From IMG/VR virus record IMGVR_UViG_3300025168_000752, positions 1 to 22,275 of that record: a stretch of DNA of 22,275 nucleotides. The stretch is one strand, 5' to 3'. Below the pieces are notes generated by a model. It did no database searches and was not told the origin of the DNA. It worked only from the letters and a program-made list of their open reading frames with translations. Below are positions 7,839-20,803 of this stretch, piece after piece. Made by a program: the position numbers and the translations under genes. Position 1 is the first letter of the stretch, and every line of letters starts with the position of its first letter. Source of the DNA: a virus.

Positions 7839-8993
7839 ATGGCATATTATTTTTTATTCCCCGAAATAGACACAACATTATACAGTCATCCAGACAGAAA
7901 AACAATGAATACTGGTGCTGATGAAATTTTAGAAGTTACTAAAGAAAAAGGAACTACAGATGATATACACTATCCTACTAGAATTTTAGTTAAATTTAAA
8001 AATGAAGAAATAAAATCAACAATATCCAATACATTAGGACATAATAGTTTTAATAATTCCTCAACAAAGGTTAATTTACAACTAACAGCAGCAGAACCTA
8101 AAAACTTAATCCAAACATTAAATTTAAACCTATTTGCAATATCACAATCATGGGACGAAGGTACAGGTAGATATACAAATATACCTACAGGTTCAAATGG
8201 AGCGAGTTGGCAATATAGGTTTAATTCTACTGTAAGTACAGAATGGGCTACTTCTAGTTTTGCAGTTCCTACAACAGGATCAATAGCATCTACCTTAATA
8301 ACTCAAGGAGGAGGAGTATGGTATACAGGTAGTGGTTTTGAATCAACACAGCAATTTTTAGTAGGAGATTCTTTAGACACAAATTTTGAAGTTACTGATA
8401 TAGTAAAAAAATTCAGTGAAAGTTTATTTAATAATAACACTCACCCCACAGGAATAGAAAATAATGGATTTTTAATTAAAAAACCAGATTCTATAGAAAC
8501 TAATGTTTCATTTAGTTTTGGTGAATTACAATATTTTTCAGTAGATACTCATACAATTCACCCACCAAAATTATGTTTTAAATGGGATGATAGTGTACAT
8601 AATAAACAATCTTCTGCTATTTTAAATGGAGACTTAAATGTTACTTTATATAGAAATCAAGAAAAATATAATCAAAACGATGAGGCAACTTTTAGAATAC
8701 ATGTAAGAGACAAGTATCCAACAAGACAATTTGCATCTTCATCTAATTATTTAGATATAGGATACTTTACAACATCATCTTATTATAGTATAAGAGATGC
8801 CCACACAGAACAAGAAATTATCCCTTTTGATGATACTTTTACAAAATTAAGTGCAGACAATGAAGGAATGTACTTTAAAATATTTATGAAAGGATTACAA
8901 CCTGAAAGATATTATCGTGTTTTATTTAAACATAAAAATAATGATGGTGTTAAAATATATGATGATAACTATTATTTTAAAGTTATAAGGTAA
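7839..8993 (+). CDS. Beta-sandwich tail/baseplate protein, DNRLRE-like
   Basis: A 384-residue beta-rich protein directly behind gp6. The first two thirds resemble DNRLRE-type beta-sandwich domains. A strand leads to SQSWDEGTGRYTNIPTG (about 102-118), then come a tryptophan-rich loop region, TNFEVTDIVKKF (about 182-193), NNGFLIKKPD, and a closing PPKLCFKWDD strand. Such domains are known from extracellular and polysaccharide-associated proteins. The C-terminal part (about 270-384) is a second beta domain with FRIHVRDKYPTRQF and an ending of GLQPERYYRVLFKHKN like a fibronectin-type strand pair. The stop overlaps the next ATG (TAATG). Position suggests a wedge-attached or peripheral baseplate protein, possibly contacting surface glycans. 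I see no resemblance to T4 gp8, which occupies a similar place. Virion role is likely; the DNRLRE resemblance is judged by eye. Confidence 0.6.
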   Translation: MAYYFLFPEIDTTLYSHPDRKTMNTGADEILEVTKEKGTTDDIHYPTRILVKFKNEEIKSTISNTLGHNSFNNSSTKVNLQLTAAEPKNLIQTLNLNLFAISQSWDEGTGRYTNIPTGSNGASWQYRFNSTVSTEWATSSFAVPTTGSIASTLITQGGGVWYTGSGFESTQQFLVGDSLDTNFEVTDIVKKFSESLFNNNTHPTGIENNGFLIKKPDSIETNVSFSFGELQYFSVDTHTIHPPKLCFKWDDSVHNKQSSAILNGDLNVTLYRNQEKYNQNDEATFRIHVRDKYPTRQFASSSNYLDIGYFTTSSYYSIRDAHTEQEIIPFDDTFTKLSADNEGMYFKIFMKGLQPERYYRVLFKHKNNDGVKIYDDNYYFKVIR

Positions 8994-10705
8994 TGGCTAA
9001 TAAAAGTTTTAAACTTGCAAAACAAGTAATTAGTAATAAACTTTCTAATGATCTTTATGGAAAAGATTTTAAAAAACTTTCTAAATCTACCCAACCTGTA
9101 GATATAAAAAAAATTAAAGAAATATATGATAGTTTATTTTATATTTTTAATAAAAAAGGTACAAATGCCCATTCTAGTATACATGAACAAAGTTATAATT
9201 ATATACACTATATTTATAATAGAGAATTAGAAAATGAATTAAACCAAAAAATAAATACTCAAAGCGAAAAAGAAGCAGAACTAAATAGACTTGAAACCTT
9301 TACACTTCCTGAACATCCTATATATTCTAATGGTTTATTTTTAATAGCAGGTGAAAATGGGGTAAAATATGAGGATATGCATACTGTGTATATTATGCAA
9401 GAAGGTAGAAGAAGAGCATTTAAAAATCGAAATACTTATTTGATGGTAAGAAGAGCAATGGGTCTTCCTGAAGATGACACAGGAAAATGGTTTCTTCTTG
9501 TTGATGAATTAAATAGTATAGATAAAGGAGCAGACATAAATAACACAAGTGATTTACTTTTAGAAGGTACAGATTTAATAGTAGAAGATGATGAAATTCA
9601 AGGTATATCAGCTACTATTACTGTTTTATTTACTTGTGATGGAAATGAAGTACAAGATCAATATAATCTTATTTTAGAAGAAGATGCAGACGCATCAGGA
9701 CAATTTTATTTAGGCAATGGGGGTTGCACAATAAAATATATACATGATCCCTATTTTACTGACGCATCAGGACCTACAATGAAAACAGTAAATCTTGCTA
9801 AAGGAGAAGAAATAGAATTAACAATACCAAGACCCACAGATGGTTTAAATAATGTAGTTAGTGATCCCCAATGGGCAAATACAATAGTTGTAAACGGTGT
9901 ATTACAAAATCCTTTTAATATTCCTCCCGCTATAACTTACAATGGTAATAGTATAAACAATTATTATAAAAATTGGGGTCCTGATGGAGAATACCCAGGA
10001 GTAATTTATGCAGAAGGAAGAATAAGAAGTACTGAAAGATATAACGCTCATGTAAGTATGAATTTAGGAATAGCACAAGATTTAACTACAAGATTATTTA
10101 ATGGTTTACCTTCTCGTACTTACAATCCTTTAGGAGGAGAATTTTGGGATGTAGTACCTATTCCTCCAAATTTAGGTTTTGAAGAAAGTAATTATGGTAC
10201 TAGAAAAATCTACCCTAACAGAACAGGTATGTGGGGATCTTTAGGCCAATCAGCCCATCTTCAAGAACATTTTAATAACATGGATTGGGGTTATTATAAA
10301 ACAACTGTGCACGGTCTTAGAATATATGGGCAACCTATATTATCGATAGATGATCGTCATCTTGTTATGTTAAAAGCTTTTGCTGATCATAGTGGTCCTT
10401 TTGGGATAATCTACAGATATTTTGGCTTTTGGGATTGTACTAATAAAAAAGTAATATACTACAGAAGAAAAAAAATAGACCATGTAATAACAATGCATTA
10501 TAAAGATTATTCAACAACAGTTTATAAGGTAAATTGGGGAAAATCAGGAAAAGAACACTATAACAGAATGATATTTCCTGGTCTTCAAGGTTATCAATTA
10601 AACCAATTCCAAGGAAATGGAAATCTTTATAACCCTACGGGTAATGGTGACAATTATGGAAAGGCTCCAGGAGGTTATAATTCTTACCCAAAATGGGAAC
10701 AATAA
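8993..10705 (+). CDS. Baseplate/tail protein with unknown C-terminal domain; shares a module with next gene
   Basis: A 570-residue protein with no family I recognise. Residues 1-105 are helical and charged, with coiled-coil character at about 75-103. Residues about 112-178 hold a compact module, GLFLIAG then VYIMQEGRRRAFKNRNTYL and KWFLLVDELNSI, which recurs in shortened form in the next gene (about 107-178 there). A beta-rich middle (about 185-290) follows. The final part (about 330-550) is rich in Trp, Tyr, His and Gly: FWDVVPIPPNLGF, then WGSLGQSAHLQEHFN and MDWGYYKTTVHGLRIYG. It ends in a run of Tyr/Lys strands and a flexible Asn/Gly tail. The composition resembles a folded carbohydrate- or envelope-binding head, but no catalytic motif is visible. 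It is coupled to the preceding gene by a TAATG overlap. A baseplate-attached fibre or adhesin is my inference. Confidence 0.6.
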   Translation: MANKSFKLAKQVISNKLSNDLYGKDFKKLSKSTQPVDIKKIKEIYDSLFYIFNKKGTNAHSSIHEQSYNYIHYIYNRELENELNQKINTQSEKEAELNRLETFTLPEHPIYSNGLFLIAGENGVKYEDMHTVYIMQEGRRRAFKNRNTYLMVRRAMGLPEDDTGKWFLLVDELNSIDKGADINNTSDLLLEGTDLIVEDDEIQGISATITVLFTCDGNEVQDQYNLILEEDADASGQFYLGNGGCTIKYIHDPYFTDASGPTMKTVNLAKGEEIELTIPRPTDGLNNVVSDPQWANTIVVNGVLQNPFNIPPAITYNGNSINNYYKNWGPDGEYPGVIYAEGRIRSTERYNAHVSMNLGIAQDLTTRLFNGLPSRTYNPLGGEFWDVVPIPPNLGFEESNYGTRKIYPNRTGMWGSLGQSAHLQEHFNNMDWGYYKTTVHGLRIYGQPILSIDDRHLVMLKAFADHSGPFGIIYRYFGFWDCTNKKVIYYRRKKIDHVITMHYKDYSTTVYKVNWGKSGKEHYNRMIFPGLQGYQLNQFQGNGNLYNPTGNGDNYGKAPGGYNSYPKWEQ

Positions 10706-10711
10706 TTTGCT

Positions 10712-11404
10712 ATGAGTGATTATACTAAAATAAATTTAAATAAAAAAGTGTATGGAATGTCAGATGCTTTAGAAGCATTAGATGAAGAATTTAAAGAATT
10801 TGCCCTCGACCAAAACACAGTAGAAGAATTTTTTAGCTTATATAATAAATTTTTTTATGATATGGATGAAGATACACATAAATATTTTATAGTTCAAAGT
10901 GGAAATTTAATTTATCCTTTTGGATATAAAAATCCTCTACTAACTGAAATAGAAACAGTAGAAAAAACTATAATTGAAACTAAAAAAGAAATAGATTCAT
11001 TACCTAAAGAAAACTTTTTCTTAAAAAATAATCTTTTTATAATGGATAATGATTATAAAGATAATCCTACATCTAAATTACAAGAAGGGAATAATGTGTA
11101 TATTATGCAATCGGGAAAAAAAAGAAAAATTAAAGATTATCAAGTTTATTTAAATATAAAAACACAACAAAGAGTAGCTATAGATGGTCAAGATTTAATA
11201 AATGATGAAGAATTTTTAATATTTATACATGGAAATACTATAAGAGACATACCTTCAGGACCTGATATAATATCAAACGATAATATTAATATAAGTAATT
11301 TAGAAATTAATATTTATCCCCAAACACTAGAAGAATACGATTTAGCTAATATGCATATAATAAACACAACAACAATAGACAGAACAGATTATGGTGGCTT
11401 ATAA
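10712..11404 (+). CDS. Baseplate/tail protein, short relative of the preceding gene
   Basis: A 230-residue protein that looks like a diverged, shortened relative of the N-terminal part of the protein encoded just upstream. Both have a helical start with a Tyr/Phe-rich segment (SLYNKFFYDM here, DSLFYIFNKKG there) and a charged coiled coil (about 76-100). Both then have a module of KNNLFIMDND, VYIMQSGKKRKIKDYQVYL and a hydrophobic strand EEFLIFIHG. The DNA of the VYIMQ part is identical over 16 bases (9385-9400 and 11095-11110). It lacks the Trp/Tyr-rich C-terminal half of its neighbour and ends in an Ile/Asn-rich tail. Its last 14 bases overlap the following gene. The pair may be an adaptor duplicated so that one copy carries a binding head and the other anchors the next protein. 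Function is not recognised. Confidence 0.6.
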   Translation: MSDYTKINLNKKVYGMSDALEALDEEFKEFALDQNTVEEFFSLYNKFFYDMDEDTHKYFIVQSGNLIYPFGYKNPLLTEIETVEKTIIETKKEIDSLPKENFFLKNNLFIMDNDYKDNPTSKLQEGNNVYIMQSGKKRKIKDYQVYLNIKTQQRVAIDGQDLINDEEFLIFIHGNTIRDIPSGPDIISNDNINISNLEINIYPQTLEEYDLANMHIINTTTIDRTDYGGL

Positions 11405-14400
11405 TTCAAATAATAATTTAACGTCTACACCTGCTCAAACACCTGCAGATAGTCCATCTTCTACTACAGGAAACAATAATACAAGTGTATCCCAACAGAT
11501 ATATTCTATAAATGCAAATGATGCAAATCAAGGATTAATAAATGTATCATTAGCAGAGGCAGATGAAATTGGTAATGCAAATCTTTTTATCGCAGATAAA
11601 GAAATATACGAAGTAGATGATAGCATTCAAATTGAAAAAATAGATTCTAAAGTTTTAGAAAAAACTTTTGGTAGACCAGATGATTATTTAGAATTACACA
11701 TATATAATAGTAGCAACCAAAAAATACACACAGAAGACAATTTCACAGACTTTGAAATACCTGAAGGACAAGATTGTGCTCCTTTAACAAAATTTATAAG
11801 AGTAAATCCTGAAAAAATACTTAAAGATAGAGGATACATAACAGGTATATTTAGATTAAAAATAAATATTTTTAAAAATAAAATATTTAATACTAATCAA
11901 TTTCCTTTTAATATAAAAGAAATATCAAGTGATAGAAGAGAAATAAGATCAATAACACCTACAGCTACCAATGCTATTTTTGATCCTGCAGTTAGTGAAT
12001 TTTTATCAGATTTAGAATCTTCTCTTTATTTTAAAGAATTTTCGATTAATTTAGGAAATGATAAATTAATACCTTGTATTAATGCTTTATTAAATAAAGG
12101 ACCCTATAAACATGAATTAATATTAAAAACTTATCAACCACTTTCTAGAGATATTAATAATGCATTATCTTTTAAAATAGTTGAAGAAATAGTAGATCCT
12201 CTTTTTATAGAAGTTAATTTAGGAGCCCCAGAACTTGTAGAAAATATAATCCCTTTAAGAGGGCCTAATTTTCATATAGATGTTAGACAACACAATTCAA
12301 TCCCTACAGATTTAAAAAATTATGACGACTTATTAAATTATAATTTAACTTCATCTTATCAACATCTATTAAATAAATTAGAAAATAACAGTGCAGAATT
12401 AAACATACAATATGATTATATAAGAAATGTCTCTGAAAGTTTAGAAGATGTAATCATACCTTATCATTTTGAGAATTTTACACATTTTAGTAGTGCTACA
12501 GAACGATTAAGAAATTTCCATTATAAGATAAAACTAATAGAAACTTATGATAAAGAAATATCAGAAATAAATTTAATAACTGGCCCCACATCAGCTTCTT
12601 TTACTACAGTAAAAGCTAAAGAAGATATAAATAAGAAAAAAGAAAATCTTATAAAAGGATTTGATGGATATGAACATTTTTTATATTATGAATCTTCTTC
12701 TTATTCATGGCCTAAAGATATTGTTAATGCTCCTGAAGGATTCTTATTAGGTAGTGATAATGTTATATTAGCTCATACAACTTCTTCAAAAGTTAAAAAT
12801 TGGTTAGGAGATGAAAGATCATCTTTTGCAAATTATGGAGGACAATTATTATCTGCTTCCTTATTTGATAGACAAAATGATTATAATTTACTTAAATTAG
12901 TCCCTACACATATTTTAGACAATTTACAAAATGAACTATATGTTAGTTTTGTAAATATGATAGGACAACATTTTGATAATGTATGGACGTATGTAAAAGC
13001 AATAACAGATATTCATGATGCTGATAACAATAGAGGAATCTCTAAAAATTTAGTTTACTATCAATTAAAAAGTTTAGGATTAGAAGCATTCGATCAATTT
13101 GAAAATTCAAATCTAGTAGAATATATATTAGGAGAAGGGACAGGAAGTGGTTATTATGATACAGATAATCTAAATGAAACTATGATTACTGCTTCAAATC
13201 ATGGTTCTATTCCTAAACAAGATATTTCAAAAGAAATTTGGAAACGTTTATATCATAATGCTCCTTATCTTTTAAAAACAAAAGGAACAGAAAGAGGATT
13301 AAGAGCATTAATGAGTTGTTATGGTGTACCCTCAACTATATTAAATGTAAAAGAATATGGTGGTTCTACACCAATAAGTGGTCCTTTAAAAGATTTAGAC
13401 ACAGCAGATACTTATAAAACTTTTACTTATGAAAAAGCAAGTTTAGCTTTAAAAGGAAATTCAGGAACAAATGGTTTTTTTATAAAAACAAATTGGTCTT
13501 CTTCTTTAAATTCTAACCAAGATACTAAAAAAACAATAGAATTTAGAATAAAACCCGCAAAAACAGATGCTAATTATCTTTTATTAGCGTTATCAGGTTC
13601 AACTAATTCTGTAGGTACTCAATTTCCTGATAGAGATAATATTTTAATATTAGAACCTTATTTAGGTAGTGATATTTCTTCCTCAGGAGACCATGATCAA
13701 TATGGAAGATTATCATTATACCAAGGTAGTACTATAAGAACGTCTACAAATTATTTTCCTGTGTTTAATGGTGATTTTTGGAATATACATTTATCAATAA
13801 AAGACATAACACAATCACCAACCACAGCTAGTTTTGGTGCATATCAAGCTAATTGGCTAAAAAATGTATCATATTATGTTACAGAATCTCACAATATTAC
13901 AACTCCTAAAAGAACATGGGGACATAATCAACAAGGAGCAAAACATGTTTATTTTGGAGGCGTACCTTTAAATTCATTTGCACAATATAATAACCATGAT
14001 GGTTTAATATATTCTGGTTCTCTACAAGAAGTTAGATATTACTTTGGTGAAGAGTTATCTCATTCAACCCATAAAAAACATGCCCTAGAACCTTTTATGT
14101 ATGCAGGTAATTCATTATCATCTTCTTATGATAATTTAGTTTTACGACTACCTTTAGGATCAAATGATCAAGCAGACAGTTCAAGTTTTCATCCTAATAT
14201 AGATTTAAATCCTTTCTTAGCCGCACCAGGTGTAGGAATAGGCTTTGGTATAATAGGAACATCAGGTTCATTTATAGTAGGTAATTTTAGTGCTTCAGCA
14301 ACAGTAGGTAGTAATATGGATTCACAAGTATGGGAAGAAGTAGTAGAACCCCATTATTTACCTACTCCTGACACTGTTGGTATTTCAATGACAAGTGAAA

Positions 14401-15281
14401 AAGTTAGAATTGATGAAGGAAACATAAATGGCAATGTATTATCTCCTTTTGTAAGATTAGAAACTTCAACATTAGATAGACAACCACAAGATTTTGAAGA
14501 TTTAGGGGTGTATTTTTCTCCAACCACAGAAATAAATGAAGATATAATTTATACTTTAGGTTCTTTTAGATTAGACGATTATATAGGTTCTCCTTTACCT
14601 TCAAACCAAACATCTTCTACTTATTCAAATTTAAAAATAGCAAAAGATTTATACTTTAAAAAAGTAAAAAGAAATAGATACAAATATGGTGATTATATAA
14701 AACAAATACAATATATAGACCATACATTATTTAAAATGATAGAACAATTTGTTCCTTTTAAATCAAACCTAAAAACAGGTCTTTTAATAGAACCTCATTA
14801 TTTAGAAAGAACTAAATTTGCAAGAGAATTACCTATTATAGATGATGGTCAAACAATGGTTACAGGTTCTTATCAAACTTTTGAAGTTGAAATAAAATCT
14901 AAAGACATATATAATGTAAATTCTGGATCTAAAGCTTTTGGTGTAGCTAATAATGTTAGAGAACAATGGGATCCAGGTACATATGTAACATATACTAGTA
15001 ATTTATCTCCTCTTTCTTCAAGTAAGGGAAAAAGAATAGAACAAGGAACAAACACCACTATAGAAATATTTGATGATTATTTAGATTCTTCAGGAAAAGA
15101 TCCTAATAGAGAAAACAATCAAGCATCACAAGCTCCAATAAAACCTTTTGTTACTTCAAAACCACTCAATTATATAGCACATCAATCATCTGTTTTATTA
15201 GGAAATGTAATGGGAGGAAAAAAGTCTAATAAGTATTATAAATACACAGAATATCGTTTGCAAACTTCAAGCCTGTATTAA
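11391..15281 (+). CDS. Large baseplate wedge protein: gp7/tail protein I-like with LamG-like insertion
   Basis: The largest protein here, 1296 residues. The N-terminus (1-45) is Ser/Thr/Asn-rich and disordered. The first half is mixed beta and helical, with coiled-coil-like helices at about 330-430. At about 614-660, KEIWKRLYHNAPYLLKTKGT, then ERGLRALMSCYGVP, matches what I know of phage tail protein I (P2 gpI) and its T4 equivalent gp7. That protein pairs with two gp6 copies in the wedge core, and gp25 and gp6 lie upstream. Directly after it, at about 710-890, is a LamG/concanavalin-like jelly roll: KKTIEFRIKPAK, FWNIHLSIKD and LIYSGSLQEVRYYFGEELS. Such domains often bind glycans. The C-terminal 350 residues are beta-rich then helical around NRYKYGDYIKQIQYI. 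The start overlaps the previous gene by 14 bases; a GTG one codon later would give VAYN and cannot be excluded. Confidence 0.7.
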   Translation: MVAYNSNNNLTSTPAQTPADSPSSTTGNNNTSVSQQIYSINANDANQGLINVSLAEADEIGNANLFIADKEIYEVDDSIQIEKIDSKVLEKTFGRPDDYLELHIYNSSNQKIHTEDNFTDFEIPEGQDCAPLTKFIRVNPEKILKDRGYITGIFRLKINIFKNKIFNTNQFPFNIKEISSDRREIRSITPTATNAIFDPAVSEFLSDLESSLYFKEFSINLGNDKLIPCINALLNKGPYKHELILKTYQPLSRDINNALSFKIVEEIVDPLFIEVNLGAPELVENIIPLRGPNFHIDVRQHNSIPTDLKNYDDLLNYNLTSSYQHLLNKLENNSAELNIQYDYIRNVSESLEDVIIPYHFENFTHFSSATERLRNFHYKIKLIETYDKEISEINLITGPTSASFTTVKAKEDINKKKENLIKGFDGYEHFLYYESSSYSWPKDIVNAPEGFLLGSDNVILAHTTSSKVKNWLGDERSSFANYGGQLLSASLFDRQNDYNLLKLVPTHILDNLQNELYVSFVNMIGQHFDNVWTYVKAITDIHDADNNRGISKNLVYYQLKSLGLEAFDQFENSNLVEYILGEGTGSGYYDTDNLNETMITASNHGSIPKQDISKEIWKRLYHNAPYLLKTKGTERGLRALMSCYGVPSTILNVKEYGGSTPISGPLKDLDTADTYKTFTYEKASLALKGNSGTNGFFIKTNWSSSLNSNQDTKKTIEFRIKPAKTDANYLLLALSGSTNSVGTQFPDRDNILILEPYLGSDISSSGDHDQYGRLSLYQGSTIRTSTNYFPVFNGDFWNIHLSIKDITQSPTTASFGAYQANWLKNVSYYVTESHNITTPKRTWGHNQQGAKHVYFGGVPLNSFAQYNNHDGLIYSGSLQEVRYYFGEELSHSTHKKHALEPFMYAGNSLSSSYDNLVLRLPLGSNDQADSSSFHPNIDLNPFLAAPGVGIGFGIIGTSGSFIVGNFSASATVGSNMDSQVWEEVVEPHYLPTPDTVGISMTSEKVRIDEGNINGNVLSPFVRLETSTLDRQPQDFEDLGVYFSPTTEINEDIIYTLGSFRLDDYIGSPLPSNQTSSTYSNLKIAKDLYFKKVKRNRYKYGDYIKQIQYIDHTLFKMIEQFVPFKSNLKTGLLIEPHYLERTKFARELPIIDDGQTMVTGSYQTFEVEIKSKDIYNVNSGSKAFGVANNVREQWDPGTYVTYTSNLSPLSSSKGKRIEQGTNTTIEIFDDYLDSSGKDPNRENNQASQAPIKPFVTSKPLNYIAHQSSVLLGNVMGGKKSNKYYKYTEYRLQTSSLY

Positions 15282-17128: not shown

Positions 17129-17788
17129 ATGGGATATTTAGACAACAGTAGCATCACAGTAGATGCAATTTTAACAAAAAGAGGCCGTGAATTACTTTCT
17201 AGAAATGATGGAAGTTTTAAAATAACAACATTTGCCTTAGGAGATGATGAAATAGATTATTCATTATTTAATGAAAGCCACCCAAATGGTACTCAATATT
17301 CAGCAGAGGCAATTGAAAATATGCCTTTAATTGAAGCTATACCTAATGGTGCTAATTCAATGAACTCAAAATTAATTACATTAACAAGAGGAGCAAATGC
17401 AATTCCTTATATTACTACATCTTTTCCTGTTTCAGGAACTGAAATACAACAAGGATCTCCTCTTTCATTAACCCCTACAACATTTAATTTAAATGGAGGA
17501 AATTCATCAGCATCAGAAGAATATATATTTACTATATTAGATGGTAGATTAGTTGAACCAGGAAGTTTTGTAGGACAAGGAGGAACATCAGCAGCATCAG
17601 TTGCCGATTTAGCAGAATTCATGACAATAGCTGAATCAATATCAGTTAGAGGAGCAAGTCTTAATATGCAAGCTACAACTTCTAATGCATTATTTAGTGC
17701 AACAGTTACTTCTAGATCTACTCAAATTGTAATTGAAGGAGTAACATCTGGAGCCTTTTTAACATTTCCCCTTATAATTAAATCATAA
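17129..17788 (+). CDS. Phage tail structural protein, YLDNSSITVDAILTKRG-type
   Basis: A 219-residue protein. Its opening, MGYLDNSSITVDAILTKRG, then RELLSRNDGSFKITTFALGD and DEIDYSLFN, is a pattern I recognise from structural proteins of T4-like marine phages. I do not know a precise function for it. The N-terminal 60 residues look like a compact alpha/beta anchoring domain. The remaining part is beta-rich with Ser/Thr/Gly, including a Gly-Ser-Ala loop (LNGGNSSASEE) and an alanine-rich helix SAASVADLAEFMTIAES. It is the first gene after the third candidate promoter, so it may be produced in quantity. It is followed 12 bases later by a protein with a shared adhesion-type C-terminus. A tail-fibre connector or baseplate-peripheral subunit is the likeliest role. 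The structural-protein label is fair; the exact place in the virion is unknown. Confidence 0.65.
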   Translation: MGYLDNSSITVDAILTKRGRELLSRNDGSFKITTFALGDDEIDYSLFNESHPNGTQYSAEAIENMPLIEAIPNGANSMNSKLITLTRGANAIPYITTSFPVSGTEIQQGSPLSLTPTTFNLNGGNSSASEEYIFTILDGRLVEPGSFVGQGGTSAASVADLAEFMTIAESISVRGASLNMQATTSNALFSATVTSRSTQIVIEGVTSGAFLTFPLIIKS

Positions 17789-17800
17789 AAATAAAATAAA

Positions 17801-18871
17801 ATGTCATATACAAGATTTGGAGACAACGATATAGTTACTAGACAAGCAGCAGAATTAGTAACATCAACATGGACTAATAATTTAAATAATTTAACAACAG
17901 CACTTACTTCATCAGAACAAGCTACTTTTACTACATCAACAAGTTCTGGACAGTTTTTTATAGAAGTATATCAAACAGCTAGTGATTCTTCTGATGCAGA
18001 AGTACAATATTCAGTAGCTTATGGTCATAGAAATGGTTCTGGTTCTCCTGATTTTACAAATGACACAGGTTCATTTGGTTTAGGTGCTTCTAGAGTTATA
18101 TATAACCAATATAGACAATTAGTATTTGGAGATGATAAAAATTCTAGTGGAGTAACTCAGTTTTTTACATTTGGATCACACACACCTGATGATATTTATG
18201 TAATTAATATTAATAGATCAAGATACAAACAAAGATTAACACTAGGATCTTTAAACTTACATTTATCTGGTTCACAAGTAGGACAATTTCCAGCTCAAAA
18301 AGTAATACACCTAACAGACGATAGTGTCACAACTAGTGCAGGACAAGGAAACACTAATTTAGGTACATATTATAACATAGTATCAGGATCAAATGGCACA
18401 GTATTATCAGGAACAACAGCAGCCACTCAAGTAGGAGGAACAGGTTCATATGGTCATTTTTATCCAGAAGCAGGATTAATAATTTTAAACGCAGATGCTT
18501 TTAGTGGATCTTTAGATCCAGCAATAAATGATGGAGGACCTGTAGCTAATGTAGATAAAAACCATCAAGAATTATATGATTGTATATCAGCATCTGGTCA
18601 TTTTATAGTTGATACAACTGAAGAAATAAATTCTCAATTTTACTTTGTAAGAGCAAGAAATGATCAATTTAATTATACTAATAATGGATCTTTTGTAGAT
18701 GGTTCTAATAATATTAGATTTGAAACAATGAAATTAAATCCAAAAGTTTTTATAACAACAATAGGATTATACAATGATGCTCTTGAATTATTAGCTGTTG
18801 CAAAATTAAGTCAACCAGTTGCTAAAGATTTTACAAAAGAAGCACTTATTAGAGTTAAATTAGATTATTAA
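17801..18871 (+). CDS. Tail structural protein with shared C-terminal IGLYND module
   Basis: A 356-residue protein, beta-rich and Ser/Thr/Gly-rich, with no membrane segment. The N-terminus has a helical stretch (NDIVTRQAAELVTSTWTNNL). Residues about 50-130 form a beta domain with SGQFFIEVYQ and EVQYSVAYGHRNGSGS, then QYRQLVFGDD. The middle has an IYVININRSRYKQRLTLGSL strand set. The last 40 residues, KVFITTIGLYND, ELLAVAKLSQPVAKD and a final beta strand, match the C-terminus of the next protein (YITTIGLYNE, ELLVVGKLGQPIRKS). Both have Phe-Asn-x-Thr-Asn before that module, so the whole C-terminal 70 residues may be homologous. This probably represents a common docking or trimerisation end. I infer a tail or baseplate decoration protein. 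Confidence 0.65.
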   Translation: MSYTRFGDNDIVTRQAAELVTSTWTNNLNNLTTALTSSEQATFTTSTSSGQFFIEVYQTASDSSDAEVQYSVAYGHRNGSGSPDFTNDTGSFGLGASRVIYNQYRQLVFGDDKNSSGVTQFFTFGSHTPDDIYVININRSRYKQRLTLGSLNLHLSGSQVGQFPAQKVIHLTDDSVTTSAGQGNTNLGTYYNIVSGSNGTVLSGTTAATQVGGTGSYGHFYPEAGLIILNADAFSGSLDPAINDGGPVANVDKNHQELYDCISASGHFIVDTTEEINSQFYFVRARNDQFNYTNNGSFVDGSNNIRFETMKLNPKVFITTIGLYNDALELLAVAKLSQPVAKDFTKEALIRVKLDY

Positions 18872-18872
18872 A

Positions 18873-18935
18873 ATGCCTTCTAAATGGGTCTATCATATAT
18901 TTACAAAAAATTCACAGCTCAGGACAAAGCAATAG
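18873..18935 (+). other. Possible 20-codon leader ORF or decoy start before the LamG protein
   Basis: An ATG at 18873 sits right after the preceding stop in the TAAAATG arrangement used by most genes here. Its frame encodes only 20 residues (MPSKWVYHIFTKNSQLRTKQ) and ends at the TAG at 18933. The long gene starts at 18884 in another frame, and that frame has TAA directly before its ATG, so the long protein cannot begin at 18873 without a frameshift. A run of six A (18905-18910) lies where the two frames read nearly the same peptide (FTKN and YKKF). It could be a coupling peptide, a slip site or chance. Confidence 0.2.
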
Positions 18936-20803
18936 TCCCTTTTAACGCCCACAAACAATATAACTTTAGTTCAGGTTCGGCAGCGTCTAATCAAATAACT
19001 GTTACTAATACTAGTTATACGTCAGAATCTATATCTTTATATAGTTCTGCAAGTTCTATTTATGGTGGAGATTTAAGAAATGTAATAAAATATAATCAAC
19101 TAGATCATTTATTTTATAGAGATTATACAAAAAAAGCAGCATTAAAAAAAGATTTTATAAGTTTTTTAGAAAATAGAAGAGAATTATATGAAAAAAATCA
19201 AATAATATCTATTCCTTCAGGATTATATGGTTATGAAATTAAAAAATCATCTTTTTATTTAAGTGCAAGTGGTTATGAAATAGTAGATGATTCTAAAGGA
19301 AATTTAATTATTAGTGGTACTAATATAGATAATTATCCTAATGATGTACAACAAAATGTTTTTAGATTAGATCCAATTAAAGGGTTTAAAAAATATGATT
19401 TAAATGTTTATGATGATTATGTTGTAGTAGAAGGAGGAGCATATCAAGACACACATGAAATAGTTACCAAAAAATTCTATAGACAAGGATCTAAAATTCC
19501 AGGAGCTATAGGTACTTATACTACTCCTGGTCAAATAGGAATGGAAGAAACAACTCAATATCCTCGATCTTACTATACTCAAGATGAAGATGACAGTTAC
19601 TTTTTTAATAAATTAAATTATAATAATGTAAGATTTGAAACTTCTTCTTTAGGAAATGTACAACATCAATTTCCTTCTATTGTTTTTAATAGTTCTACTG
19701 GTTCTTATATAATGGTTCCTAATAAAAGAAGATTTAATTTTAATACAACTGAAGATTTTGCTGTATCTTTTTATATACACCCACAAGCAACAGGGTCAGA
19801 TGGTGATATGTCTAATTTAGAAAAAAGATATATTATAGCTAAAAGTGGTGAAAAGCATATAACACCTATTTTAAACGCAGGAATATCCACAACTCAAAGT
19901 CTTGCAGGTCCTCAATATCCATTTGAAATTTACATGAGAAGCCAATCTTTATATTTTTCAAGATCAGATGGAAAAACAACAGATAGTATATTTGGAGAAA
20001 TAACATCTAGCCACACAGCTCAAAGAAAATCACATATACTATGTCAATTATCTTCTTCGGTAATGGAATTATGGTTTAATGGAACTAAAATAGCAAATAA
20101 AACTATAACCACTAAGGGACCAACAAAAAATGACGCAAATTTATATATAGGTTCAAAAGGAACAATATCTACATCAGCAGACGATAGTGGACTTAATATG
20201 AGACCTTATTTTTTTAATGGAAAACTTAATAATATTAATATTTGGTCAAAGTCTTACAATTCAGATCAAATAACAAACATATCCGAAAGTGTAAATGCTT
20301 CTCCTTATGTTGGAAATATATTCTATCAAAGTGGTTTAGCTACAATTACTCATCCTAATCATTATCGTATTTTAGACACTAATGGAATAGGAAATATGAC
20401 TATAGCAGGTTATGGAATAGGAAATATGACTATAGGAACTCAAGGAATACCTGGATTTACAGTAAATCATACTAATCTACCAGGTGGGTTTATAGTAGGT
20501 AAAAATAATAATATAAATACAATACAATTCCAAGGATCTCATTTAATTTATGAGCATGAATATCAATGTGATATCCAAGAATATGAATTTAATAGTACAA
20601 CAAACATATCGGCAAGAAATACAACAGGTACTAATCCCCATGAACTAGCAGGTTTTACAACTAGTTCACATTTTCAACCTTATATTACAACAATTGGTTT
20701 ATATAATGAAAACCATGAATTATTAGTAGTTGGAAAACTTGGCCAACCTATTAGAAAATCAGAAAAAACAGATATGACGTTTGTACTTCGCTGGGACACT
20801 TAA
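18884..20803 (+). CDS. Tail adhesin-like protein with LamG-like domain and 10-residue repeats
   Basis: A 639-residue probable receptor-binding or peripheral tail protein. The N-terminus (YIYKKFTAQDKAIVPFNAHK) is basic and probably the attachment end. At about 280-470 there is a LamG/concanavalin-like jelly roll: FNFNTTEDFAVSFYIHPQA, MELWFNGTKIANKTI, NLYIGSKGTI and FNGKLNNINIWSKSYNSDQI. The order of strands ending in W-S-x-x-Y is characteristic, and such domains commonly bind sugars. Just after it, at about 499-528, is a 10-residue repeat (xGIGNMTIxx twice, then QGIPGFTVNH). The C-terminal 45 residues match the module of the preceding gene: YITTIGLYNENHELLVVGKL. The start at 18884 is fixed by an in-frame TAA immediately upstream. 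LamG is well supported; receptor binding is inferred. Confidence 0.75.
   Translation: MGLSYIYKKFTAQDKAIVPFNAHKQYNFSSGSAASNQITVTNTSYTSESISLYSSASSIYGGDLRNVIKYNQLDHLFYRDYTKKAALKKDFISFLENRRELYEKNQIISIPSGLYGYEIKKSSFYLSASGYEIVDDSKGNLIISGTNIDNYPNDVQQNVFRLDPIKGFKKYDLNVYDDYVVVEGGAYQDTHEIVTKKFYRQGSKIPGAIGTYTTPGQIGMEETTQYPRSYYTQDEDDSYFFNKLNYNNVRFETSSLGNVQHQFPSIVFNSSTGSYIMVPNKRRFNFNTTEDFAVSFYIHPQATGSDGDMSNLEKRYIIAKSGEKHITPILNAGISTTQSLAGPQYPFEIYMRSQSLYFSRSDGKTTDSIFGEITSSHTAQRKSHILCQLSSSVMELWFNGTKIANKTITTKGPTKNDANLYIGSKGTISTSADDSGLNMRPYFFNGKLNNINIWSKSYNSDQITNISESVNASPYVGNIFYQSGLATITHPNHYRILDTNGIGNMTIAGYGIGNMTIGTQGIPGFTVNHTNLPGGFIVGKNNNINTIQFQGSHLIYEHEYQCDIQEYEFNSTTNISARNTTGTNPHELAGFTTSSHFQPYITTIGLYNENHELLVVGKLGQPIRKSEKTDMTFVLRWDT
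20382..20435 (+). repeat. Tandem direct repeat, 24 identical bases at a 30-base period
   Basis: Bases 20382-20405 and 20412-20435 are identical over 24 positions, separated by 6 bases. The period of 30 bases equals ten codons, so the protein repeats GIGNMTI in frame. A third unit, QGIPGFTVNH, follows with the same glycine and beta-strand spacing but diverged DNA. The first two units appear recently duplicated. Confidence 0.9.

Follow-up and report, generated by a model that had tools for sequence, protein, structure and literature searches.

In a marine T4-like phage, two neighbouring genes, here termed A and B, encode tail proteins with the same C-terminal ending, and this raises the question of whether that ending is an exchangeable piece mounted on unrelated bodies or a part of one common scaffold. 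The former had been proposed in an earlier note on the window, that is, the whole stretch of 22,275 nucleotides analysed here. The reading that is considered likely at the present state of analysis is a different one: A and B constitute an ancient tandem paralogue pair, most likely of the baseplate periphery of Far-T4-like phages, in which the core of B accepts internal insertions. No description of such a pair was found in the literature. The two genes and their terminal modules are located as follows.

17801..18871, + strand: A, a tail protein of 356 aa and the insert-free paralogue consisting of the core only (open reading frame, relatives and AlphaFold2 model)
18884..20803, + strand: B, a tail protein of 639 aa comprising the core of A plus insertions (open reading frame, Pfam and AlphaFold2 model)
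18749..18868, + strand: C-terminal module of A, residues 317-356 (sequence and AlphaFold2 model)
20681..20800, + strand: C-terminal module of B, residues 600-639 (sequence and AlphaFold2 model)

The common ending itself, as first noticed, is confirmed: the motif ITTIGLYN occupies residues 318-325 of A and 601-608 of B, and blastp aligns A 266-342 with B 534-625 (E 2e-7, 36% identity). Upstream of the ending, a further motif is found at A 290-295 and B 569-574 alike, but it reads FN-x-T-x-N, while the spelling FN-x-T-N given before is absent from B. In the AlphaFold2 models, the module of A is a beta-meander with strands at residues 315-324, 330-343 and 348-355, and the strands of the B module lie at 600-607, 613-624 and 631-638. 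Pairwise alignment of the A body with the B body gave no significant match (local score 43). At the profile level, the picture extends considerably. The close match over about 26 residues described in the earlier note holds, yet comparison by hhalign enlarges the common region to A 212-355 and B 471-638 (P 98.9, E 1.4e-17) and finally to the whole core, of which the following segments can be delimited.

18434..18868, + strand: C-terminal half-domain of A, residues 212-356 (hhalign)
20294..20800, + strand: C-terminal half-domain of B, residues 471-639 (hhalign and short-B HMM)
18092..18334, + strand: N-terminal core segment of A, residues 98-178 (colinear with B 67-140)
19082..19303, + strand: N-terminal core segment of B, residues 67-140 (short-B HMM, and hhalign of short B against long B)

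The N-terminal segment carries the motifs QYRQLVF, IYVININ and LTDDS in A and KYNQLDHLFY, ISIPSGLYG and VDDSKGNL in B, and the C-terminal half of A features YG-FY-P-G-IIL, EFN-S-NP, YITT-GLYN and LLAVAKL in succession. In the A/B core family as defined in this analysis, the N-terminal core and the C-terminal half are colinear in both proteins. The decisive comparison makes use of the short B family, which comprises the relatives of B that are free of LamG and smaller than 430 aa. The A family profile matches the short B profile over columns 50-386 of 387 and 1-287 of 289, respectively, with P 99.8 and an E-value of 1.2e-29 that, like all HHalign E-values given here, refers to a single comparison; the controls, one reversed and five column-shuffled profiles, remained at P 0.2 or below. 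The N-terminal halves alone still match (P 95.9, E 5e-9; reversed P 0.1), and this runs counter to the previous impression that the two bodies look unrelated. Paralogy throughout had been named in advance as the outcome that would speak against the exchange model, and it is what the profiles reveal across the core.

Since direct comparison of A with the N-terminal parts of long B proteins is weak (P 12), the N-terminal homology between A and B is visible by profiles only and rests on the short B family as a bridge, which for its part matches the long-B N-terminal parts at an E-value of 8e-16. In the sequence clustering, the A and B groups are joined by one link from an A-type to a short-B protein. 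In addition, the AlphaFold2 monomer models (mean pLDDT 82.2 for A and 79.7 for B) present the main elements in the same order outside the insert: a helix (A 96-109, B 67-78), a strand (A 131-136, B 104-109), two further strands (218-221 and 226-230 in A, 475-480 and 485-488 in B), another strand (A 271-285, B 546-564) and, last of all, the meander. A Foldseek search of BFVD with the A model retrieved the LamG-bearing B-type proteins A0A6J5N9K5 (E 1e-7) and A0A218ML58 (E 4e-4), both at probability 1.0, and several BFVD neighbours are common to the A and B models. Judged from the profile comparisons, A and B are thus paralogues along the whole core, derived from one ancestral gene. That the likeness might be a short-motif coincidence or a convergent beta-hairpin could be suspected from the default pairwise search, which aligns 39 residues only; the probability of this is practically nil, as the whole-sequence Smith-Waterman score of 102 exceeds the maximum of 89 among 500 shuffles (mean 47), relatives number in the hundreds, and the controlled full-length profile match refutes it.

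The apparent dissimilarity of the two proteins finds its explanation in the architecture of B: a single insertion slot accommodates some 320 residues, among them a Laminin_G_3 domain, and makes B look unrelated to A.

19334..20293, + strand: first insertion slot of B, roughly residues 151-470, with the LamG domain and a linker (gapped in short B)
19697..20272, + strand: Laminin_G_3 domain of B, residues 272-463 (Pfam PF13385, E 2.3e-9)
20384..20518, + strand: second insertion slot of B, roughly residues 501-545 (low-confidence model, inserts in long B)

Residues 151-470 of B are wholly or mostly gapped among the short relatives, and residues 6-202 are covered by the short-B HMM. In nearly all long B proteins (538-1657 aa), the match to the short-B profile, which has 284 positions, is interrupted at about position 157, just after the motif D-D-x-x-G-N-L. 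The insert is a clear member of the Laminin_G_3 or concanavalin-like domains, with 38.0 bits compared to a Pfam gathering cut-off of 27.6, and the likeness is limited to the insert and does not extend to B as a whole. It is the only Pfam match in A and B, so the assignment of a LamG domain to B alone stands, and PDB sequence searches with B returned LamG-type domains only. Two scans of further long B proteins detected LamG in eight of eight and in four of five, respectively. The second slot contains a repetitive stretch in which GIGNMTI occurs twice and which is modelled at a pLDDT of 39-46 (AlphaFold2); a further large insert is located here, near profile positions 183-190, in several B proteins that are among the longest (1300-1608 aa). 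Across 40 LamG-bearing relatives, mean identity to B of the window amounts to 54% in the N-terminal core, 42% in LamG, 57% in the middle part and 73% in the last 49 residues. Hence, LamG diverges faster than the core, and the terminal residues are the most conserved region of B.

Taken together, A and B have in common a core of about 290-350 residues, the most conserved part of which is the C-terminal half ending in a beta-hairpin of the type YITTxGLYNDxxxLLAVAKLxQP. A usually consists of this core only, and B takes up extra domains at the slot after D-D-x-x-G-N-L. In most cases this is a LamG (concanavalin-like) domain, and the second slot occasionally receives large inserts as well. The core may serve as the scaffold or docking part, either towards the baseplate or between A and B. 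The inserts, in turn, may bind glycans of the host surface, such that B would display variable adhesin domains.

If the C-terminus were instead a mobile docking cassette, swapped between unrelated tail proteins, it should be found on different bodies, and a profile search for the module on unrelated N-terminal parts had been suggested as a check. The corresponding census encompassed 698 open reading frames with the module at 356 loci, some of which overlap. The module ends 0-14 residues from the C-terminus in all reading frames with an intact 3' end, a strictly terminal placement that a cassette would also show. The upstream core of A or B was matched in 531 of 540 unique complete proteins, and in the other nine no such core was recognised. 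Eight of these nine form a group of 818-887 aa without a recognisable N-terminal half of A or B; in both of the two that were scanned, FG-GAP repeats were detected, at E 2e-22 and 5e-23. The alignment of all eight retains the C-terminal half of B (P 99.7). These eight relatives probably carry an FG-GAP-type body in place of the N-terminal half of B, which means that other bodies, too, can bear the C-terminal half, although the FG-GAP forms keep about 130 core residues and not the hairpin alone. The idea of one platform bearing different heads survives in another form. One of the FG-GAP forms, a protein of 884 aa (locus L215, 7031-9682) with FG-GAP repeats and a B-type C-terminal half, exhibits a weak dockerin-like stretch between its EFN and GLY motifs. 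Two A-type cores of Microcystis phage Mel-JY01 with long N-terminal extensions, for which no Pfam match was obtained, might also be cited in favour of a cassette.

The module tree, built from the last 80 residues of 102 rows and coarse in its details owing to few columns, requires three changes of the A/B label, compared to 34 in shuffles, and does not reject a single A clade (p-AU 0.91). The A and B modules thus fit a single split, and there is no sign of swapping between them. The gene order was AB in 207 loci and AX in nine, along with few ABA, AAB and longer arrays. By the evidence of census and tree, the module stays with the body it belongs to, and what varies lies internally. A mobile cassette is accordingly an unlikely explanation and, as regards the window pair, has largely been refuted. 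The common A/B scaffold is at its most conserved in the shared C-terminus, which is not a separately swapped end piece.

With regard to the function of the terminal hairpin, a lead towards an attachment-related role, though not family membership, comes from the tail-collar fibre domain of P2 gpH. PF12571 (Phage_tail_fib) is the leading Pfam family for the module: three of 20 module sequences match it, more than match any other family, at a best E-value of 0.012, which is below significance; several PHROG tail-fibre families are also among the matches. Against a gpH-type profile built from 11 phages, the module profile scored 45.3 in hhalign (P 93.6) over 34 columns, compared to 21.6 or less in 30 shuffles, while none of eight other families from these loci exceeded 20. 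The likeness, weak but specific, consists of GLYD/N followed by L-I/L-A-V-A and lies above these controls, yet it is short, and the PF12571 domain is N-terminal in a fibre with a following shaft, whereas the A/B module is at the extreme C-terminus. By analogy to the P2-type tail-collar fibres, a role of the hairpin in docking or assembly is plausible.

Folding and oligomerisation elements are known in many phage fibres, and the hairpin, being the most conserved part and predicted to be a beta-meander, might be such a trimer element devoid of any docking role. This is a possible but clearly less favoured reading, as the gpH likeness fits an attachment-proximal role better. Strict C-terminal placement would, moreover, suit a cleaved maturation or chaperone tail. 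Such a tail is nonetheless highly improbable, given the sequence conservation and the predicted structure, both of which are continuous with the rest of the domain, and the resemblance to the retained hairpin of gpH-type fibres.

A neighbouring gene joins the comparison with gpH.

17129..17788, + strand: upstream protein of 219 aa, a conserved neighbour (profile comparison)

The first 39 residues of this protein resemble the start of the gpH domain (ILTxxGxxLL...ITxFAxGD), and among nine families its own is the only other one to match gpH, at P 61-70 as opposed to 0.7 or less for the remaining eight. A tail-collar-like domain divided between neighbours, with the 219-aa protein corresponding to gpH 2-36 and the C-termini of A and B to gpH 91-128, is conceivable, albeit improbable; the proteins might then complete one another's sheet on assembly at the baseplate.

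The preferred reading of A and B as a paralogue pair of the baseplate periphery draws on their genomic surroundings. IMG/VR scans with A and B yielded 117 loci, 67 of them with relatives of A, and relatives in named records occur in Immutovirus of Flavobacterium, Mel-JY01, Rhodothermus phage RM378 and an uncultured phage of 484 kb, with A homologues in Immutovirus (E 3e-77), Mel-JY01 and RM378. Genes 164 and 165 of Flavobacterium phage immuto (Immutovirus) are direct homologues of A and B in an isolated phage and have the same gene order, although B of immuto, with 357 aa, is devoid of the LamG-sized insert. The same order of direct homologues is also encountered in the isolated phage Mel-JY01 (WWT39513-39517), which, unlike the window, features five tandem copies of the family (locus L121, 18046-26989). 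RM378 p128, of Far-T4 type, is an A-type homologue (E 8e-14) and, unlike the A/B pair, the single copy found in the stretch examined. RM378 is the sole Far-T4 isolate named, and Far-T4 phages have been linked to marine Bacteroidetes (PMC7198788).

A and B adjoin gp25- and gp6-like genes, and the neighbours common to the window, immuto and Mel-JY01 comprise these two as well as proteins of 384, 1296 and 219 aa. The homologues in RM378 and related phages suggest that the phage is Far-T4-like; no gp23 was recognised in the 22-kb record. Hosts are probably mainly aquatic bacteria of the Bacteroidota: three of seven genome-contig matches lie in metagenome-assembled genomes named Flavobacteriales, Winogradskyella or Flavobacteriaceae, while the remaining bins are a mixture and may contain errors of binning. 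In the widest module alignment, no stretch was conserved enough for a scan of genome contigs. A match in Yersinia phage phiR1-37 (E 0.1) spans a gene boundary, with reading frames lacking a module match, and was dismissed as chance.

In phage T4, gp10, gp11 and gp12 are neighbouring baseplate-periphery proteins that arose from one primordial fold and gained or discarded subdomains and inserted loops (PMC3004832). Their place in the operon is similar to that of A and B downstream of the gp25- and gp6-like genes, and A and B are most likely part of the baseplate periphery, too, as far as gene order and homologues indicate. Neither A nor B matched T4 chains in the PDB by sequence, and the A monomer model matched no PDB fold at E <= 0.001; gp10, gp11 and gp12 are trimers. 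The correspondence with T4 would hence be a likeness of logic rather than demonstrated homology. Two 84-column Foldseek matches of A to neck or connector proteins in the PDB (probability about 0.8, E 0.45-0.54) were not relied on, and PDB sequence matches to A were chance only.

The pair represents a conserved and so far unnamed tail part of a phage group with a wide distribution in aquatic environments. Paralogy in conjunction with a defined slot allows hundreds of hypothetical proteins to be assigned to one family, and the slot marks the segment of B that most likely decides to which host surface binding takes place. Moreover, the pair provides a clear test case for domain insertion, rather than end swapping, as the process that diversifies phage adhesins.

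Elsewhere in the window, a LamG-like appearance of the 1296-aa protein (11391-15281) at about residues 715-860 had been perceived by eye, and no match to the LamG profile of B was obtained. The proteins of 570 aa (8993-10705) and 230 aa (10712-11404) share a common N-terminal part (blastp E 7e-4, 25% identity over 123 aa) and may, by this alignment, form another tandem pair of paralogues within the operon.
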